A stretch of 64,000 nt of DNA, from the NCBI RefSeq assembly GCF_003173355.1, contig NZ_QGMY01000007.1, positions 310,001-374,000 of the forward strand. Reading direction: 5' to 3'. The translations under genes and the position numbers were made by a program. The DNA is from Methanospirillum lacunae (lineage in GTDB: Archaea > Halobacteriota > Methanomicrobia > Methanomicrobiales > Methanospirillaceae). Positions 17,647 through 28,384 of this stretch are shown in pieces. Each line of letters starts with the position of its first letter. Positions within the stretch are counted from its first letter, which is position 1. The notes beneath the pieces are model-generated. The model was not told the DNA's origin and did not search any database. It saw only the letters and a program-made list of their open reading frames with translations.

Positions 17647-18807
17647 TTATTTTGATTTTGTCTCTATAATTGAGGTTTTCCTGACAATGGCTGAATTGTC
17701 ATTGTTCTCAACCTCAAGTGTAACTGTATATCGCCCGATGCCCCCGTACACGTGTAAGGGGTTCATTACAGTGGAATATACACCGTCGCCAAAGTTCCAG
17801 TGCCATTTTGTGGGAATTCCCTCAGAACGATCAACAAATTGGACAGATAAGGGTGGCACTCCTGTCACTGGAGTTGCAGAAAAATTCGCAACTAGAGGGA
17901 CAGGGGTTGGAGTTGGAGTAGATGTTGCCGTTTTTGTCGGAGTTGGCCCACTACTATTCACTATAATATATCCCGGTTTTGTTACTGATGCAGTTCCCCC
18001 TTCAGAAAAGGTAACCGTTAATGAAACCGGGTAGGTACCTGATGCATATACATGAGACGGACTTTGAAGATCGGACGAAGTACCATCCCCAAAAGACCAG
18101 ATGTACCCGGATACAGAACCATTAACCAGAGGAGTAAAGACGACCGTCAAAGGGGCAGCGCCCGAACTTGGTGATGCAGTAAAATCAACAGTTCCAGGAA
18201 CCGGAGTTGGTGAAATGGTGACAGTAGGGGTCACCGTAGGGAAAGAAGTGGGTGTTGCTGTCGGAGTTGACGTCGCTGTGACCGTGACAGTAGGTGATGC
18301 AGTAGGGGCAGGAGTGGCCGAACCGACAGTTATCGTTGAATTGACTATTGTTGCACTTATTGGTGAACCACTATCATCTGTCAGTTCCCCAATTGATGCT
18401 ACCATACTCGTGGTACCTGTAGCAACTCCTTCCATAGAAAAAGTACAGAGAGTCACATTTGTTGCGCCAGCTTCTATCCCACCCGTGAGATCAACACCAA
18501 CAACCCTCACTTGATCAGCAGGCAGAGTGGTGCTGTTTTTCATCGTATACACTGATGGAAATGTAACAGATACAGGCCTCGCAATTCCAACAGGGGTCAT
18601 CGAGGTATCAATTTTAAAGCCCGCGAGTCCATTCGGTACCGAATCCAAGACCAGAGCAGAAGAACCGGTAGAACCTGTGCCAGCAATAGTTACATTCTGA
18701 ATTGTCAATGTCACAGCAGAAGACACAGAGATAAGAGAACAAAAGAACAAAATCGATACCAAAGCAGGAATTATTCTCCGACGTAATCCATCACATTTTT
18801 TACTCAT
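17647..18807 (-). CDS. exported protein: cohesin-like module, Thr/Pro linker, two PKD domains
   Basis: About 386 residues from ATG 18807, chosen because it immediately precedes a basic N-region and hydrophobic signal peptide. The longer frame from 18849 would bury the signal. Residues about 32-160 resemble a cohesin fold (SVPNGLAGFKIDTSM, ELTDDSGSPI). A Thr/Pro/Ser-rich linker (about 160-200) leads to two PKD domains with WSFGDGTSS and WNFGDGVYS, separated by a second short T/P linker. There is no C-terminal anchor. It is third in a minus-strand cluster after a dockerin-bearing protein and a paralogue with the same cohesin-like module, so it could be a binding partner in a surface complex (inference). 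Confidence 0.75.
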   Translation of the reverse strand: MSKKCDGLRRRIIPALVSILFFCSLISVSSAVTLTIQNVTIAGTGSTGSSALVLDSVPNGLAGFKIDTSMTPVGIARPVSVTFPSVYTMKNSTTLPADQVRVVGVDLTGGIEAGATNVTLCTFSMEGVATGTTSMVASIGELTDDSGSPISATIVNSTITVGSATPAPTASPTVTVTATSTPTATPTSFPTVTPTVTISPTPVPGTVDFTASPSSGAAPLTVVFTPLVNGSVSGYIWSFGDGTSSDLQSPSHVYASGTYPVSLTVTFSEGGTASVTKPGYIIVNSSGPTPTKTATSTPTPTPVPLVANFSATPVTGVPPLSVQFVDRSEGIPTKWHWNFGDGVYSTVMNPLHVYGGIGRYTVTLEVENNDNSAIVRKTSIIETKSK

Positions 18808-18860
18808 GATCTCAACCTTTGGTTCCATGCTCCATATTATTGAAAACAAAAGAGAGAGCC

Positions 18861-20351
18861 TCAGGGGCTCATGTTCACATATTCGACAATCTTGTTAGTC
18901 GGTGGGAAATATGGCTGATCATAGAAGTAACTCTGGATGACTGCAAGCCCATTCCTGACATCAAGGGTATCAGTCCAATTTGCATATCCATCCTTAACCA
19001 ATGTCAGGTTATGAGTTCCTACAGCCAGGTTAAGAACCATCACATCAGTCATACCAACTTTCTTATCATCAATGTATGTTGTTACCAGTTCCGGGTAGGT
19101 CACAATGTATGCGGCTCCGGTCTGTGGGGGATCAGCAACAAGTTTTCCAATCTCAGCATAATGGGGCACCATCTCATATCCGGATACGAATGTAGGCAAA
19201 ACACCATTGTTTGCAATTACCGGGTCTACTATGTCATAATACCCTTCTTTATGAAGCCTGAGTTGATAGGTTCGGGGTGTAAGGTTGGTTACATTTACCG
19301 GGGTAATGCCCTGGTACGCATTATTCAGGTAACATTCTGCCCCATCAGGAACAGAATAAATTGTCATTGAAGTTTTGTCTCCACGCTGTGGCATCCTCAT
19401 ATTTGCAGCAACAATGTAGTTTGCCCGTGACGTTTCGTTGCTGTACTGGCTGTTGGAGGCATTTAATGAGACAGAGTAGATTCCAGGAATACGATAGATA
19501 TGTTGCGGATTCTCTACGACCGACGTTGAATCAGATGAATTATCACCAAAGTTCCATAAGAATTTTGTAGGGTATCCTTCTGATAGGTCTGTAAATTTTA
19601 CGGTCATTGGTGAAGGTCCACTGGTTACATCTGCTGTGAAGTTAGCGATAACTGTCGGAACTGGTGTCGGGGTTGCCAGTTGCACAATTGTTTGAGTAGG
19701 TGTGGGAGTTATTGTGGGAACTGTTGTGAGTGTCGGGGTTGCCGTAATCGTTTGTGTTGGAGTTACTGTTGGTGAACTCGTTATGGTCGCTGTAGGTGTC
19801 GGAGTGATAGTCGCGGTAGTTGTAGATGTTATGGTTGGCGTAGGACTAGGAGTCGGTGTTGAGGATGAACCTCCTACTACGATTCCAGCCTGTGACATGG
19901 AAAACTGAATCGCATTCCCACTATCATCTGTAAGTTCTGACACCGTTAGAACAAGATTGGTTGAACCTGCTGCAACTCCCTCAATTGTAAGAGTTGCAAC
20001 CGGAACATTGGTAGCTCCTGACTTAATGGTGTCCGAAAGATCAACGGCCGTTATATTAACTGACTCTCCTGGAAGGGTTCCATCCACATTTTTCATTGAG
20101 GCCCAGTCAGGCATCGTAACAGCGGTGATCTTTGCAACTCCGGATGTGGAAAGTGCTGCATTTAATTTATATCCAGCAAGGCCGGTGGAGACTGTATCAA
20201 TGGTAATCGGAATGCTGGCACTCTGGCCAGCTCCGCTGATGCTTACCCCTGATAGTTCAATAGTCGTTGCTGATCCTACCCCGACAAGGAGCAGGCATCC
20301 AATAAGGAACAATGCAATTCCATTTCTTTTCTGAATCATGTTATTCACCAT
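18861..20351 (-). CDS. exported protein: cohesin-like module, Thr/Pro linker, PKD and PEGA-like domains
   Basis: About 496 residues. ATG 20351 has GGTGAAG just upstream; ATG 20339 with GGTGAATAAC is equally possible. Both put a signal peptide at the very N-terminus. A cohesin-like module covers about residues 28-155 (TVSTGLAGYKLNAAL, ELTDDSGNAI). Then come a T/P/S-rich linker of about 75 residues, a PKD domain (LWNFGDNSSD), and two PEGA-type beta domains (TIYSVPDGAECYLNNAYQG; YPELVTTYIDDKKVG). The start lies 5 nt from the stop of the dockerin protein gene, so the two are almost certainly co-transcribed. Confidence 0.75.
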   Translation of the reverse strand: MVNNMIQKRNGIALFLIGCLLLVGVGSATTIELSGVSISGAGQSASIPITIDTVSTGLAGYKLNAALSTSGVAKITAVTMPDWASMKNVDGTLPGESVNITAVDLSDTIKSGATNVPVATLTIEGVAAGSTNLVLTVSELTDDSGNAIQFSMSQAGIVVGGSSSTPTPSPTPTITSTTTATITPTPTATITSSPTVTPTQTITATPTLTTVPTITPTPTQTIVQLATPTPVPTVIANFTADVTSGPSPMTVKFTDLSEGYPTKFLWNFGDNSSDSTSVVENPQHIYRIPGIYSVSLNASNSQYSNETSRANYIVAANMRMPQRGDKTSMTIYSVPDGAECYLNNAYQGITPVNVTNLTPRTYQLRLHKEGYYDIVDPVIANNGVLPTFVSGYEMVPHYAEIGKLVADPPQTGAAYIVTYPELVTTYIDDKKVGMTDVMVLNLAVGTHNLTLVKDGYANWTDTLDVRNGLAVIQSYFYDQPYFPPTNKIVEYVNMSP

Positions 20352-20355
20352 ATCT

Positions 20356-23300
20356 TCACCAGTGTGAGTAGGCATCGAAAAATTTCTGGATATCATTGCC
20401 ATCAACTACCCCATTATAGTTATAATCAAACGGAGCGACAGGATATGAATTCAGGTAATCTTTTGACCATTGCTGGAAGAAAACCGTAACATCGTTCGAA
20501 TTAACAATCCCGTTACCATCAAAGTCATCAATCAGACCGTCATGCGTCAAGTCTGGTTTGAGATCATTTGGAGGTGTTGTATAGCCAATCAAGGCACCGA
20601 CTGAACTTACGCGTATCGGAGCACTTGTTGACGTCAAACCCATGAATGAATCGCCAAACTGAGCGGTTGAAGCTGAAACGTTCAGGCTCATCACTGCAGA
20701 ACCGGATGCCGATCCATAGAGTGTGATGTTACCGAGAGAGACATTTTGCGACCCATATCCAATTCTGCTAGATGTATCAAGCCCCGCAAGTGTCAGGTAT
20801 TGTGCCTTGCCTTCAGGACTTGCTGTTACAGACCATTTGTCTGCATCAATCCACCAGGGATGATCAACAACAAGACCGAAGTTAGTTGCATTTGTACTGT
20901 TCAGATCCAGTTTGATCTTAAAACTGGAAAGACCATAGTCTGCCCTGCTCAGGCTGACCTGTACCTTTCTCCAGTTGTTTGAACCTGTTGTCATGTTCAC
21001 TACCGTTGGGTTAAACACAACCGTCCCTGAAGTACTTGCATTGTTGATCTGAATTGTTTGGTTTACCGAGCCACCATACTGGCCGTACTTGTTCCAAATC
21101 ATAAGAAGAACCGGATATAAACCAGGAGTCGGATATGAGTGAGACGGAGTACCTGAAACATTTGTTACACTTCCATCCCCAAACATCCAGTACCATTCTA
21201 TTGGGCTGCCTGAACTGGTATCATTGAACTGGATTGGTTGGGTTACAACTCCAGAGGATGGTGTTGCTGTAAAACTGACAGACATCGGGCTAGCAACGCC
21301 AATAGACTGATTGTACATCATACCGGTCGTGGAAGTATTTGGCCAAGTGTTATTTGCTACCTTCAAAACTGGTGTGAAATCCCCTACAACGCTGTAGAGA
21401 TGAGTCTGATTTACCCAGTTATTATTTGCAGGCCATGTAGAATCACGGGTTTGAGTGCTATGGTTTCCATCACCAAAATCCCACCATGCATTATCAATAA
21501 GGTTCGAAGTTGAGGTATCTCCCTGGAAAAAGACACTGAGAGGAATTGTTCCGTTATACTTGGTATAGAGAGCCGGAGCTGTTCCATTAAAGAGCAGAGT
21601 TGGACTGATATTACCGTTGACTGTGATATAATCCTCACGTCTTGATAAACTGGGATCACCACACTTATTCCAGACACTCAGATTAACGGAGTATACTCCT
21701 GGATTCCAGTACGTGTAACTTGGGTTTTTCGACGTACTTGTAGCACTCACATTGGAATCATCAAACTTCCAGTTCCAGGTAACAGGAACTCCGTCAGACT
21801 TGTCATAAAAATTCACAGTAAGGGGTGCAACTCCGGTTACCGGAGACGCCTCAAATCCAGATGTGACATTTCCATAAACAGAAACATAATTCGTTTTAGT
21901 CAAAGTACTAGTTCCGGCAACGTTTGAGGCTTTCAACGTAACCGAGAAATTCCCACCTATACTGTAGACATGTGACACATTCTGTGTCGTAACTGTTGCA
22001 CTGTTATCTCCAAAGTTCCATTCCCATGCAGTAGCAGAACTGTTGGTTGAGGAACTTCCAGAAGTGTCAATGAACGACACCTCTGCTCCAGGACACAGTT
22101 CAAGGCGATCACTTCCAGTTGTATTAGTGAAACTTACATATGGGGGTGCCATAACCCGGACTGCTCTCTTCACCGATGTATAATTACAACATGTTCCAGT
22201 CAGTGGTGTCAATGTTACATTGTACGTTCCAACTGAGGAAAACTGGTGAGTCGGATTCTTCTCTGTTGAATTCTGGGTCCCATCTCCAAAATTCCATTGG
22301 TATGATGCCGGAGTATAATTGATTACATCTGGGGAGAATGAGATCGGAGCCTTCCATGGAACATCAATAGGTGTCTGTGAGTTGTTATATGCCGGGAGGG
22401 TGAAATTTGCAGAGATATACGGATTACATACAGTAATTGAAGTCGGGTTTGACATCGAGGAGCCAGTATAAGAGTACAATGTCAATGTTGGCTGGTATGT
22501 TCCAGTTGTATTGTACTGATGAAATACATCTACTGCAGTAGCTCCAGTGGTATTAGTATTCCCATCTCCAAAGTTCCATATCCGTTGCACGATATTTGCA
22601 GAGGTCGCTGAGGTATCATTGAATCTTACGACCAAAGGAGCGGGACCACAGGTGAGGTTCGGAGAAAAGGAGGCTAGCAGACTGCTTTTTCCAAACTTCA
22701 TAACAAAGGCATCATAGGTGTTGGAACTATACGTCTCTAAAATACCTCTGTCGATTCTACTGCCATTATACCAACTTGAATCACCAACAGGATATGTTGA
22801 CTGATTAATCCAGTTCAGAACAGGAAAACAATCATTGGTGCAGTTGCTACCACTTACGAGATCCTGAATTGAAGGTGAATCAGTCCACCCGGTAATATAA
22901 ACTGTGTTTCCATCCCCAGACACCGCAACTGCGTGAGATACCTCGCTGCTACTCCCACCAAAGACGGTAGAGTATACCCAGTCACTCCCGGCCGCATTCA
23001 CGCATGTCAGGAATCCATCCTGATCACCGGTGTAGGTGATAGATTTAATAGAGTCATACTTTGGGAAACTTTCTGATTTTGTATATCCTGTCACATACGC
23101 ACGGCGACTACTATCTACTGCAATGCCATATCCCCAATCATCTGAGCTTCCACCAAGATAGGTCGAATAGAGAAGGCTTGCTCCGTCAGTCGAGAATTTT
23201 GTGACATAGGCATCCTTTTCAAAGTAATCATACACCCACCCTTTTTTCTTTTGTTTTGCATACGTAGTGACCGGGAAATCAGTCGATGCTGTGGCTCCGG

Positions 23301-24996
23301 TCACATAGGCACTAAAGTCTGAATCGATTGCAACCGCTTCACCGTAGTCGTACCCTGTTGAACCTCCAAGATAGGTTCCATACACCAATGGTGATGAAGC
23401 AGCAAAATTAAACTTCATTAAAAATGCATCTTGAGTCCCTTTCAACGTCTTCTGGTAACCGGTCGCAGTTGAGGGGATCAGATTATTCGAGGATGTAGTT
23501 CCGACAACATACACCATCCCCTGGCCGTCTACTGCAATGCCATTTCCAGATTCTGTATTACTACCACTAATGTAGGATGAATACTCCAGGCTATTTCCGG
23601 TTGGATTGAGTTTCGAGACAAAACCATCACCCATCACTGCATTATTATTTGGAGATTCCTGATATGCCCCGGATGTTACCGGGTAGTTTTCTTCAGTTTT
23701 CTTCAGTGGGCTGTTCCCAACAGTTGAACCGGTGATATATGCAGCACCCAGACTATCAACAACAATATCATTTGCCTGATCCGCAAAGTTTCCACCAAGA
23801 TAGGATGAATACCAGAAGTTAGTTCCATCAGCACGGAGTTTAGTCACAAAAGCGTCATTTGAACCATGCAGGCGTCCTCCATTCTGAATCGGCAATAAAA
23901 CAGGGAAATCAGAGGAGTATGTGTCACCGGTTATGTAAACATTGTTGGAACTGTCCACTGCAATACCCCGGCCGAAGTCAGATGAACTTCCTCCAAGGAA
24001 TGTTGAGAATGCAATTGAAGCATTGCCATTTGAATCCGTAGTGAGTTTGGTAACAAAGACATCCCGGCTGTTATGACAGTATGTTCCGTTGTAACTAATC
24101 GGAGAGTTGACATTTAGAGGGTTTACAACAGGGAAATTACAGGATGAGGTATACCCGGTTACATATGCATCGCCGGAACTGTCAATAGCAATGTCCATTC
24201 CATAATCCTCAAGAGCCCCTCCGAGATAGGTTGAATACTGAAGGTACGGATCGATGATCAGGGTGTATGCAGGATTATAATCGCCCAGTTTAAATTCGAC
24301 TCGGTTATTGTCAAGTACAGTGTAATTAGAACTGACTTCTGATCGGGTTCCATTTATTTCCTGATAACTTACCGGTGCAGCTTCGATAAGGTTTCCAAAC
24401 TTTGTTTTGACAATCAATGATCCGTCAGCAGCCAGTGTTATGTTCTCAGCACCAGAGTAAACCAGTTTAATGGATTTGGGATCCGCACCCGGGCTGACCT
24501 GATATTCTCTCTTGAGTACCCCTTTTTCGCCAGCATATGACAGGTTGATACCTGGCAGGATACTTGCATACTTGATCTCTCCATACCAGGGAACATGTTG
24601 CTTATATGCCGACTCATTCTGGCCCATGAGGAAATTGGCATACCCCGGGAGTTGATTAATTGCCTCGATGTCAATACCGGCCCGGGCACCTTCTAGGGTG
24701 ACAACCAGCGGGTGGAGCCCACTCTCATCGCCGCCTGTATCATTCCCACCAACACCGGAGACAAGCAGCCCGTCCTTAGTAAAATCAAAGGAAAAGTCCT
24801 GTGATTTTGCCTGATATTGAATGATATCAGGCGACTGTCCTACATTTTTAATAAACTGGACAGGCTGGGAGGAGAGTTCCTCAATTGAAACATTACCTCC
24901 AGTCGTTACACTCCCCGCTGCCGGCATCCAGCAGACCAGCAAAACAAGGAGCGCAGTTATCAATACATTATGTTGTATTCGTATCATCTCATGCAT
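20356..24996 (-). CDS. giant exported protein: SBBP beta-propeller repeats, six PKD domains, beta-sandwich and C-terminal dockerin
   Basis: About 1546 residues from ATG 24996 (24987 is an alternative). A further 13 codons to 25035 are open but would start upstream of the predicted transcription start. A signal peptide is followed by an N-terminal domain (FIKNVGQSPDIIQYQ) and SBBP repeats at about 255-765 (STYLGGSSDDWGYGIAVD type). Six PKD domains lie at about 773-1313 (WNFGDG variants). A cohesin-like or related beta-sandwich occupies about 1320-1465. The last 65 residues are a type I dockerin with two calcium loops, DFDGNGIVNSND and DYNYNGVVDGND. It heads the cluster with two cohesin-like proteins and has its own TATA box. 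The probable role is adhesion or surface scaffolding; no catalytic domain is visible. Confidence 0.85.
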   Translation of the reverse strand: MHEMIRIQHNVLITALLVLLVCWMPAAGSVTTGGNVSIEELSSQPVQFIKNVGQSPDIIQYQAKSQDFSFDFTKDGLLVSGVGGNDTGGDESGLHPLVVTLEGARAGIDIEAINQLPGYANFLMGQNESAYKQHVPWYGEIKYASILPGINLSYAGEKGVLKREYQVSPGADPKSIKLVYSGAENITLAADGSLIVKTKFGNLIEAAPVSYQEINGTRSEVSSNYTVLDNNRVEFKLGDYNPAYTLIIDPYLQYSTYLGGALEDYGMDIAIDSSGDAYVTGYTSSCNFPVVNPLNVNSPISYNGTYCHNSRDVFVTKLTTDSNGNASIAFSTFLGGSSSDFGRGIAVDSSNNVYITGDTYSSDFPVLLPIQNGGRLHGSNDAFVTKLRADGTNFWYSSYLGGNFADQANDIVVDSLGAAYITGSTVGNSPLKKTEENYPVTSGAYQESPNNNAVMGDGFVSKLNPTGNSLEYSSYISGSNTESGNGIAVDGQGMVYVVGTTSSNNLIPSTATGYQKTLKGTQDAFLMKFNFAASSPLVYGTYLGGSTGYDYGEAVAIDSDFSAYVTGATASTDFPVTTYAKQKKKGWVYDYFEKDAYVTKFSTDGASLLYSTYLGGSSDDWGYGIAVDSSRRAYVTGYTKSESFPKYDSIKSITYTGDQDGFLTCVNAAGSDWVYSTVFGGSSSEVSHAVAVSGDGNTVYITGWTDSPSIQDLVSGSNCTNDCFPVLNWINQSTYPVGDSSWYNGSRIDRGILETYSSNTYDAFVMKFGKSSLLASFSPNLTCGPAPLVVRFNDTSATSANIVQRIWNFGDGNTNTTGATAVDVFHQYNTTGTYQPTLTLYSYTGSSMSNPTSITVCNPYISANFTLPAYNNSQTPIDVPWKAPISFSPDVINYTPASYQWNFGDGTQNSTEKNPTHQFSSVGTYNVTLTPLTGTCCNYTSVKRAVRVMAPPYVSFTNTTGSDRLELCPGAEVSFIDTSGSSSTNSSATAWEWNFGDNSATVTTQNVSHVYSIGGNFSVTLKASNVAGTSTLTKTNYVSVYGNVTSGFEASPVTGVAPLTVNFYDKSDGVPVTWNWKFDDSNVSATSTSKNPSYTYWNPGVYSVNLSVWNKCGDPSLSRREDYITVNGNISPTLLFNGTAPALYTKYNGTIPLSVFFQGDTSTSNLIDNAWWDFGDGNHSTQTRDSTWPANNNWVNQTHLYSVVGDFTPVLKVANNTWPNTSTTGMMYNQSIGVASPMSVSFTATPSSGVVTQPIQFNDTSSGSPIEWYWMFGDGSVTNVSGTPSHSYPTPGLYPVLLMIWNKYGQYGGSVNQTIQINNASTSGTVVFNPTVVNMTTGSNNWRKVQVSLSRADYGLSSFKIKLDLNSTNATNFGLVVDHPWWIDADKWSVTASPEGKAQYLTLAGLDTSSRIGYGSQNVSLGNITLYGSASGSAVMSLNVSASTAQFGDSFMGLTSTSAPIRVSSVGALIGYTTPPNDLKPDLTHDGLIDDFDGNGIVNSNDVTVFFQQWSKDYLNSYPVAPFDYNYNGVVDGNDIQKFFDAYSHW

Positions 24997-27070: not shown

Positions 27071-28384
27071 TCAGATCTTCCTGACGTAATAAAAACCTAT
27101 AATCGCAAGTGTTAAAACGATCAGAATGGGGGAAGGCCAGGGTACCCCATTAGACGTCGTTCCTGCAGCTTTGGTGTCAGAGGTTAGTGCAGTATTTATC
27201 TGAAGCACCTGTCCTGGTATGACTTCAAAAGACGAATTATATTCCTGATATCCATCAAGTTTTATTGAGTAGGTATGCTTTGCTGAACAGACGGCTTCAA
27301 CTGTAGCAGGAGTTGTTCCTTTCAGTTGCCCATCAACAATGATATCAGCACCTGCAGGATCTGAACTCACCATCACGAGGCCGCATGCCTGTGGCATAGG
27401 GCTTGGATCCATCTGTACTGTCACCGGAGTAATTACTCCTGCAGTGGCCATAACCATGGCTTCAAAATCTTCGTAATTCCTACTTGTGATATATATTCTA
27501 TGACTTCCCGGAGAGACATTAGAGATCTCAAGAGGTCTTCCTGTTTCAGTCAGTCCCTGGTATTGATCATCAAGAAACACAGTGGCGCCCGGAGGTTCGG
27601 TGGTTACAACAATAAAGCCTCCCGATGCACCACTCGCCGGATGTAGAGAGGCATACACAGGGGTTATCACCTGATTCTGAACTGACACCCATTCAAGATA
27701 GTCATCATATCCGGCACGACTAACTTTAACTTCATGCCGACCGGGGGGAATATTTCCTACAACAAGATTGGTTGTTCCTGCATACACACCATCTACATAC
27801 GCCATGGCCCCACCGGGATCTGAACTGATTTCAAATGTCCCTGAACCAGTGCGGATGGTCAAGTTCGCTGCAACCTTGGCAGTCTCCCCAGGATGAATCT
27901 CAACGGTTCTGACAAAGGGTTCATACCCCATCATAACCAGCGAGATCAGATGAGTTCCAGTCGGCAGATTATGATAGGTCCAGGGAGCCATCTGCCCATT
28001 TCCGTTGTCAACTGTTACCATCGCACCAGAAGGGGATGAACTCACTTCCAACGTGCCTGTGGTTGCAACCGGAACTAGTACTGCCATTACCGGGATCATT
28101 CCACCTGACTGAACAGTCTGATTATAGGTCTGTTCCCATATCTGGAAACCCTGTATCATGACCCTGATCATCGTTGCATTGGTAGTCATGGCAGAAACAG
28201 GAACTATCACCGGAGTCTCACCGGCAAATGCTCCATTGACTATAACATCTGCACCTTGCGGATTGGATTTAACCTCGAAATATCCCATTTGGGTCTGCTG
28301 AGCTGATACTGGAGTCAGGAAAATTATGAAAACGATTGCCAGAAGGTATACAGATCTCCCTAGTGGGAACATCTCCCTCATCAT
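27071..28384 (-). CDS. exported five-PEGA-domain surface protein with C-terminal membrane anchor
   Basis: 437 residues: signal peptide, then five consecutive PEGA domains, each opening with a segment such as FEVKSNPQGADVIVNG, LEVSSSPSGAMVTVD or FEISSDPGGAMAYVDG. One C-terminal membrane helix (PILIVLTLAIIGFYYV) is followed by RKI. PEGA domains occur in archaeal and bacterial surface-layer-associated proteins, and the role is structural or adhesive by inference. ATG 28372, 12 nt inside, has a GAGGGAG directly in front and may be the real start. It stands alone between lysS and the symporter. Confidence 0.8.
   Translation of the reverse strand: MMREMFPLGRSVYLLAIVFIIFLTPVSAQQTQMGYFEVKSNPQGADVIVNGAFAGETPVIVPVSAMTTNATMIRVMIQGFQIWEQTYNQTVQSGGMIPVMAVLVPVATTGTLEVSSSPSGAMVTVDNGNGQMAPWTYHNLPTGTHLISLVMMGYEPFVRTVEIHPGETAKVAANLTIRTGSGTFEISSDPGGAMAYVDGVYAGTTNLVVGNIPPGRHEVKVSRAGYDDYLEWVSVQNQVITPVYASLHPASGASGGFIVVTTEPPGATVFLDDQYQGLTETGRPLEISNVSPGSHRIYITSRNYEDFEAMVMATAGVITPVTVQMDPSPMPQACGLVMVSSDPAGADIIVDGQLKGTTPATVEAVCSAKHTYSIKLDGYQEYNSSFEVIPGQVLQINTALTSDTKAAGTTSNGVPWPSPILIVLTLAIIGFYYVRKI

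Follow-up and report, generated by a model that had tools for sequence, protein, structure and literature searches.

A putative cohesin–dockerin docking set encoded by three adjacent genes of Methanospirillum lacunae

Gene layout and domain composition

A 64,000-nucleotide stretch of the Methanospirillum lacunae genome (NCBI RefSeq assembly GCF_003173355.1, contig NZ_QGMY01000007.1, positions 310,001 to 374,000; hereafter the window) was analyzed, with a focus on three neighbouring genes designated P0001, P0002 and P0003. An original prediction, made by a model from the sequence, had described them as a dockerin protein followed by two cohesin-like proteins. The three genes probably form an operon whose products make up a cohesin–dockerin docking set of non-cellulosomal type at the cell surface, with P0001 docked onto P0002 and/or P0003.

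Open reading frame (ORF) and sequence checks recovered the three minus-strand genes and all the motifs quoted in the original prediction (Table 1). The encoded proteins are all secreted. The P0001 stop was separated from P0002 by 4 nt, and at most ~55 nt lay before P0003; a single strand was used throughout. According to Pfam, profile and fold analyses, P0001 consisted of a signal peptide (assigned by inspection), a DUF7948 domain (E = 8.6e-54), seven SBBP propeller repeats (E = 6e-52), about six PKD domains (PKD_4, E = 2e-61), a cohesin and a dockerin. The dockerin had been predicted, but the cohesin of P0001 itself and the DUF7948 domain and seven SBBP repeats that make up its N-terminal half had been overlooked.

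P0002 was composed of a signal peptide, a cohesin, a Thr/Pro linker, one PKD domain and two PEGA domains, and P0003 of a signal peptide, a cohesin and two PKD domains, each preceded by a Thr/Pro linker. Pfam analysis bore out the linkers and PKD domains expected in both downstream proteins; the description of P0002 had been incomplete, as this protein has a single PKD domain and the two PEGA domains.

Table 1. Coordinates of the three genes and their features in the window (all on the minus strand)
Feature	Position	Strand	Evidence or remark
P0001	20356..24996	(-)	ORF; ATG start, frame open to 25035
DUF7948 and SBBP beta-propeller region of P0001	22666..24855	(-)	Pfam
PKD region of P0001	21046..22653	(-)	Pfam
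Cohesin of P0001, directly before the dockerin	20581..21021	(-)	Leave-genome-out profile, AlphaFold2, Foldseek
C-terminal dockerin of P0001	20362..20568	(-)	Pfam Dockerin_1, leave-genome-out profile
Calcium loop 1 of P0001, DFDGNGIVNSND	20491..20526	(-)	Sequence; acidic/amide residues at 1, 3, 5, 9, 12
Calcium loop 2 of P0001, DYNYNGVVDGND	20392..20427	(-)	Sequence
P0002	18861..20351	(-)	ORF
N-terminal cohesin of P0002	19869..20270	(-)	Leave-genome-out profile; identity to the modelled P0003 module
GLAGYK in P0002	20183–20166	(-)	Sequence
ELTDDSG in P0002	19937–19917	(-)	Sequence
Two PEGA domains of P0002	18906..19376	(-)	Pfam, E = 2.7e-23
P0003	17647..18828	(-)	ORF; start 18828 or 18807
N-terminal cohesin of P0003	18316..18717	(-)	AlphaFold2, Foldseek
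GLAGFK in P0003	18630–18613	(-)	Sequence
ELTDDSG in P0003	18387–18367	(-)	Sequence

Assignment of the cohesin and dockerin modules

The two downstream proteins started with a similar beta-module, as predicted, and the two modules shared 41% identity over 133 aa (E = 3e-25). AlphaFold2 (AF2) modelled the P0003 module, with 45 relatives in the alignment, as an all-beta domain with a predicted local distance difference test score (pLDDT) of 97.9 and a predicted template modelling score of 0.90. The cohesin jelly-roll, which had been set beforehand as one test of the prediction, was present in this model, and all 43 of the 43 Foldseek matches in the PDB at E ≤ 0.001 were cohesins. The top match was 2xdh, a non-cellulosomal cohesin of Archaeoglobus fulgidus (E = 2.4e-8, template modelling scores 0.75/0.73, 14% identity). 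The P0001 module was modelled by AF2 jointly with its dockerin, and its best Foldseek match was the cohesin 4ums (E = 6.6e-8). Because this fold also matches cohesins, P0001 bears an adjacent cohesin and dockerin.

Hidden Markov models (HMMs) were built in a leave-genome-out manner, from other genomes only and with no sequence of the M. lacunae genome. They recognized the modules of P0002 (E = 8e-38), P0003 (E = 9e-35) and P0001 (E = 4e-13), and none of 600 shuffled protein copies scored with them; the similarities are not due to chance. With 43 bits, vs 115-124 for the others, the P0001 cohesin diverged furthest.

The Pfam Cohesin model PF00963 had no match anywhere in the M. lacunae genome at E <= 10, while it matched 11 of 45 relatives at E <= 1 (best E = 3e-5). 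This miss is a detection limit and not a structural criterion, and by its predicted structure the module has the cohesin fold. When the module profile was run directly against PDB sequences, only a sub-threshold cohesin match was obtained (E = 0.73); the fold search alone was decisive. The cohesin and dockerin assignments are supported by structure prediction with the PDB fold search, the Pfam matches in relatives and the conserved gene adjacency.

The C-terminal region of P0001 was found to be a dockerin with two calcium loops, as had been claimed. Both loops were intact, with D/N at positions 1, 3, 5, 9 and 12, and the leave-genome-out dockerin HMM matched P0001 with E = 3.5e-12. Against Pfam Dockerin_1 the isolated domain scored 22.2 bits (E = 1.7e-4), 0.7 bit under the cut-off of 22.9, and Dockerin_1 matched 22 of the 24 family members; EF-hand models scored the dockerins about equally.

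Occurrence in the genome and in related archaea

The profiles built here detected seven cohesin modules and eight dockerins in the 3.74-Mb M. lacunae genome. At two further loci a cohesin gene came immediately after a dockerin gene: C16 encoded a 604-aa dockerin protein and then a 323-aa cohesin protein, and at C2:536k a protein with a papain-family (C1) peptidase, PKD and dockerin was followed by a 175-aa cohesin protein. At C2:106k, cohesin and dockerin were present in a single chain. Two S8 subtilases ended in the same dockerin type; Pfam confirmed the S8 domain in one of the two. The dockerin genes of both subtilases and of C2:498k had no adjoining cohesin. The original prediction had found no catalytic domain and favoured adhesion over polysaccharide breakdown. 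The absence of a catalytic domain held for the three proteins, but peptidases in the genome carry the same dockerin, so that the docking system extends beyond non-catalytic proteins and does not serve adhesion alone.

The genes after both other dockerin/cohesin loci of the genome (L018:5497-6039 and L019:5955-7337) shared an unrecognised N-terminal domain (P.P.EFYG...INGxP...GT.I.A.INGxxxG) with no Pfam match and had a C-terminal transmembrane segment.

Methanospirillum stamsii Pt1 keeps the gene order of the window: lysS, orthologues of P0001 and P0002, a third cohesin gene whose product ends in a PEGA-like part, and hypF. Both domains were present in all 12 Methanospirillum genomes analyzed, and the full trio was seen in 8 of them, the remainder being mostly fragmented assemblies. 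Locus L109, which belongs to a different genus, likewise lies beside hypF and has a cohesin–PEGA gene after a DUF7948–SBBP–PKD–cohesin–dockerin gene.

Among 120 genomes of the order, 44 contained the module, and a strong dockerin (E < 1e-15) was found in 37 of these 44 vs 1 of the 76 without the module (Fisher p about 1e-22, a value that ignores relatedness). In 30 cohesin-centred loci of the order, chosen by the module alone, a dockerin lay within 1.5 kb in 23, with 0.24 expected under random placement. The dockerin gene was upstream of a separate cohesin gene in 14 of these loci, and cohesin and dockerin were in one chain in 17. In a sample of 247 genomes from the phylum, 63 had a match to the module profile. 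The layout of a cargo–cohesin–dockerin gene followed by a cohesin gene was also seen outside the order, in genomes of other families that are probably haloarchaeal, where the cargo was PhoX-like and the downstream cohesins had PGF-like transmembrane tails. The system had been expected to occur singly in some archaea; it proved to be widespread, with several loci per genome.

Other arrangements were also observed. The gene pairs at L147-L151, probably haloarchaeal, encoded a PhoX-like protein ending in cohesin–dockerin and, next to it, a small cohesin protein whose C-terminus resembled a PGF-type anchor. One methanogen (G063:C1, loci L087-L106) had 43 dockerin matches vs 6 to 8 module matches, with dockerin cargo that included a GDSL lipase, a papain-family peptidase, NosD/beta-helix, CBM6/CBM35 and PKD proteins; another genome (G110) had at least 45 dockerins. 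Scaffoldin-like proteins with three tandem cohesins were encoded at L107:8036-10285 and L110:2295-4082, the latter also with a dockerin. In a different family of the order, L134 (G035:C49:24000-35500) was a cluster rich in cohesin modules, with several dockerin-like domains of divergent sequence.

Proposed docking at the cell surface and its alternatives

The closest known system is the ORF2375/ORF2376 pair of A. fulgidus. As described in PMC9705933, the C-terminal dockerin of ORF2375 (432–506) is reported to show strong and specific binding to the N-terminal cohesin (29–162) of its neighbour ORF2376; the original work is that of Voronov-Goldman 2011 and Haimovitz 2008, as cited in PMC9705933 and PMC9012536. 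The pair shares with the present locus adjacent genes, one with a C-terminal dockerin and the other with an N-terminal cohesin after a signal peptide, and its species supplies 2xdh, to which the P0003 module gave its best fold match. It differs in that two cohesin-only genes are present here vs one, the carrier is an SBBP/PKD rod and the holders end in PEGA/PKD; the sequence identity to 2xdh is only ~14%. ORF2375 presumably carries a cohesin too, which would bring the match closer.

The type I cellulosome (C. thermocellum CipA and relatives) has the same cohesin fold and duplicated calcium-loop dockerin; however, according to Pfam analysis of the three proteins, the locus had no multi-cohesin scaffoldin, dockerin-borne glycoside hydrolase or cellulose-binding module. 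In anchoring scaffoldins of the OlpA, SdbA and ScaE type, a single surface cohesin catches dockerin proteins and is anchored by SLH or sortase. The single surface-presented cohesin is common to both, whereas anchoring in M. lacunae would involve PEGA/PKD, and relatives have PGF-type or transmembrane C-termini. Before the 2022 survey of anaerobic methanotrophic archaea (ANME), the archaea known with these domains lacked multi-cohesin scaffoldins, and that survey proposes a surface role for cohesin and dockerin in ANME (PMC9012536). The ANME repertoires (PMC9012536, PMC5244752) are likewise archaeal and non-cellulosomal, with dockerin and cohesin in one chain and a proposed surface link, but they comprise tens to >100 detectable domains, and their scaffoldins carry as many as five cohesins, while M. 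lacunae has few, and its cohesins escape Pfam.

Given the domain identities, predicted folds, gene order and conservation shown above, and with the A. fulgidus pair as a precedent, the three proteins most likely assemble with one another, through binding that would be specific and calcium-dependent. All three are exported. P0001 would be a long rod of propeller and PKD domains, and its calcium-folded C-terminal dockerin would fit into the cohesin at the N-terminus of P0002 and/or P0003. These two would act as holders that present a cohesin on a Thr/Pro stalk and touch the envelope (S-layer or sheath) with their PKD/PEGA parts, and docking would keep the P0001 rod at the envelope. In keeping with this, many downstream cohesin proteins in other genomes end in a transmembrane or PGF-type anchor. 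The cohesin of P0001 would be free as a second socket for a further dockerin protein, e.g., a dockerin-tagged peptidase, or for another P0001. The outcome would be a short branched or chained display, not a large multi-enzyme scaffold. We infer anchoring through PEGA/PKD and an adhesive or display role; envelope contact by the PEGA domains of P0002 is possible.

Upstream of lysS, Pfam analysis identified a five-PEGA protein with a C-terminal transmembrane segment (27071-28384 of the window), and a counterpart gene occupied the same position in M. stamsii (L086:1962-3323). This protein is a candidate envelope partner for the PEGA part of P0002.

Several points weigh against this docking of P0001 onto its neighbours. 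The P0001 dockerin is divergent, and its fold was predicted by AF2 with low confidence (pLDDT about 59–80), although the model still showed two helices at the expected positions. P0002 and P0003 had no recognisable membrane anchor or sorting signal. The gene adjacency may come partly from shared ancestry. No convincing covariation was found between the specificity residues of dockerins and those of the cohesins next to them: a code pairing a dockerin Trp/Phe with an aromatic residue in the neighbouring cohesin was post hoc and phylogeny-confounded (Fisher p = 0.09 for separate cohesins, 0.007 for the same chain and 0.055 for all), and it was not used.

The cohesins and dockerins could be genuine and yet paired otherwise, the cohesins of P0002 and P0003 mainly taking dockerins encoded elsewhere (those of the subtilases and the papain-family peptidase) and the P0001 dockerin going to another cohesin, so that the operon would be co-regulated but not mutually binding. 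The eight dockerins and seven cohesins spread over several loci agree with this, as do the dockerin genes of the subtilases and C2:498k that stand apart from any cohesin gene; in the methanogen with 43 dockerins vs 6 to 8 cohesins, a single cohesin must serve many dockerins. We nevertheless consider such exchange unlikely as the main use of the operon, given that a dockerin gene lies directly upstream of a cohesin gene at three loci in the genome and does so far beyond chance in the order, and that the neighbouring A. fulgidus pair binds.

Two further explanations concern the cohesin of P0001. Head-to-tail polymerisation, in which the dockerin enters the cohesin of the next P0001 and P0002 and P0003 only start or cap the chain, would make use of the adjacent cohesin and dockerin that share a chain in P0001, as they do in 17 of the 30 loci. 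It is improbable, because the P0001 cohesin was the most divergent of the set and many dockerin proteins have no extra cohesin, which is therefore not required for docking. The module could instead have a stabilising role for its dockerin, comparable to that of the Ig-like X-module in type II X-dockerins, and not serve as a socket; its place directly before the dockerin in such chains and its divergent sequence in P0001 are consistent with this. We regard that role as very improbable, since the best Foldseek matches were cohesins and not X-modules, and other lineages conserve the cohesin well in chains of this kind. That the proteins are surface proteins that do not bind each other, their Ig-like modules of cohesin fold and their EF-hand-like tail serving only as building blocks stabilised by calcium or as a retention tag, is hardly credible: EF-hand models do fit the dockerins about as well as Dockerin_1, but the domains co-occur across genomes and adjoin in loci, the fold matches are specifically cohesins, and binding has been demonstrated for the A. 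fulgidus pair of the same layout.

The proposed docking of P0001 onto P0002 and/or P0003 bears on a longer-standing subject. Cohesins and dockerins were found in A. fulgidus in 1999, and their non-cellulosomal role has been a standing question since. The kind of system described here is already known; its novelty lies in how broadly it occurs and in the putative, previously unrecognised partners of 'orphan' dockerins. The InterPro table of M. hungatei gives one cohesin and nine dockerin matches (PMC5244752), an imbalance that would be explained by divergent cohesins like those found here.

A wider interpretation, possible rather than probable, is that the 'socket and plug' operon is a general Halobacteriota means of displaying exchangeable exoproteins on the envelope. 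The cargo (propellers, peptidases, PhoX-like proteins, lipases) would have a C-terminal cohesin–dockerin, or just a dockerin, and a surface cohesin protein would be encoded after it. In the M. hungatei envelope, densities link the S-layer and the sheath, and a paralogue of the S-layer protein has been suggested for them (PMC11641113); under the same tentative interpretation, the operon could supply S-layer–sheath links in Methanospirillum.

The adjacent dockerin/cohesin layout recurs from methanogens to probable haloarchaea, and the small three-protein set is suited to direct tests of partners, calcium dependence and surface location. For Methanospirillum, the divergent cohesins would be the missing partners of its dockerins.

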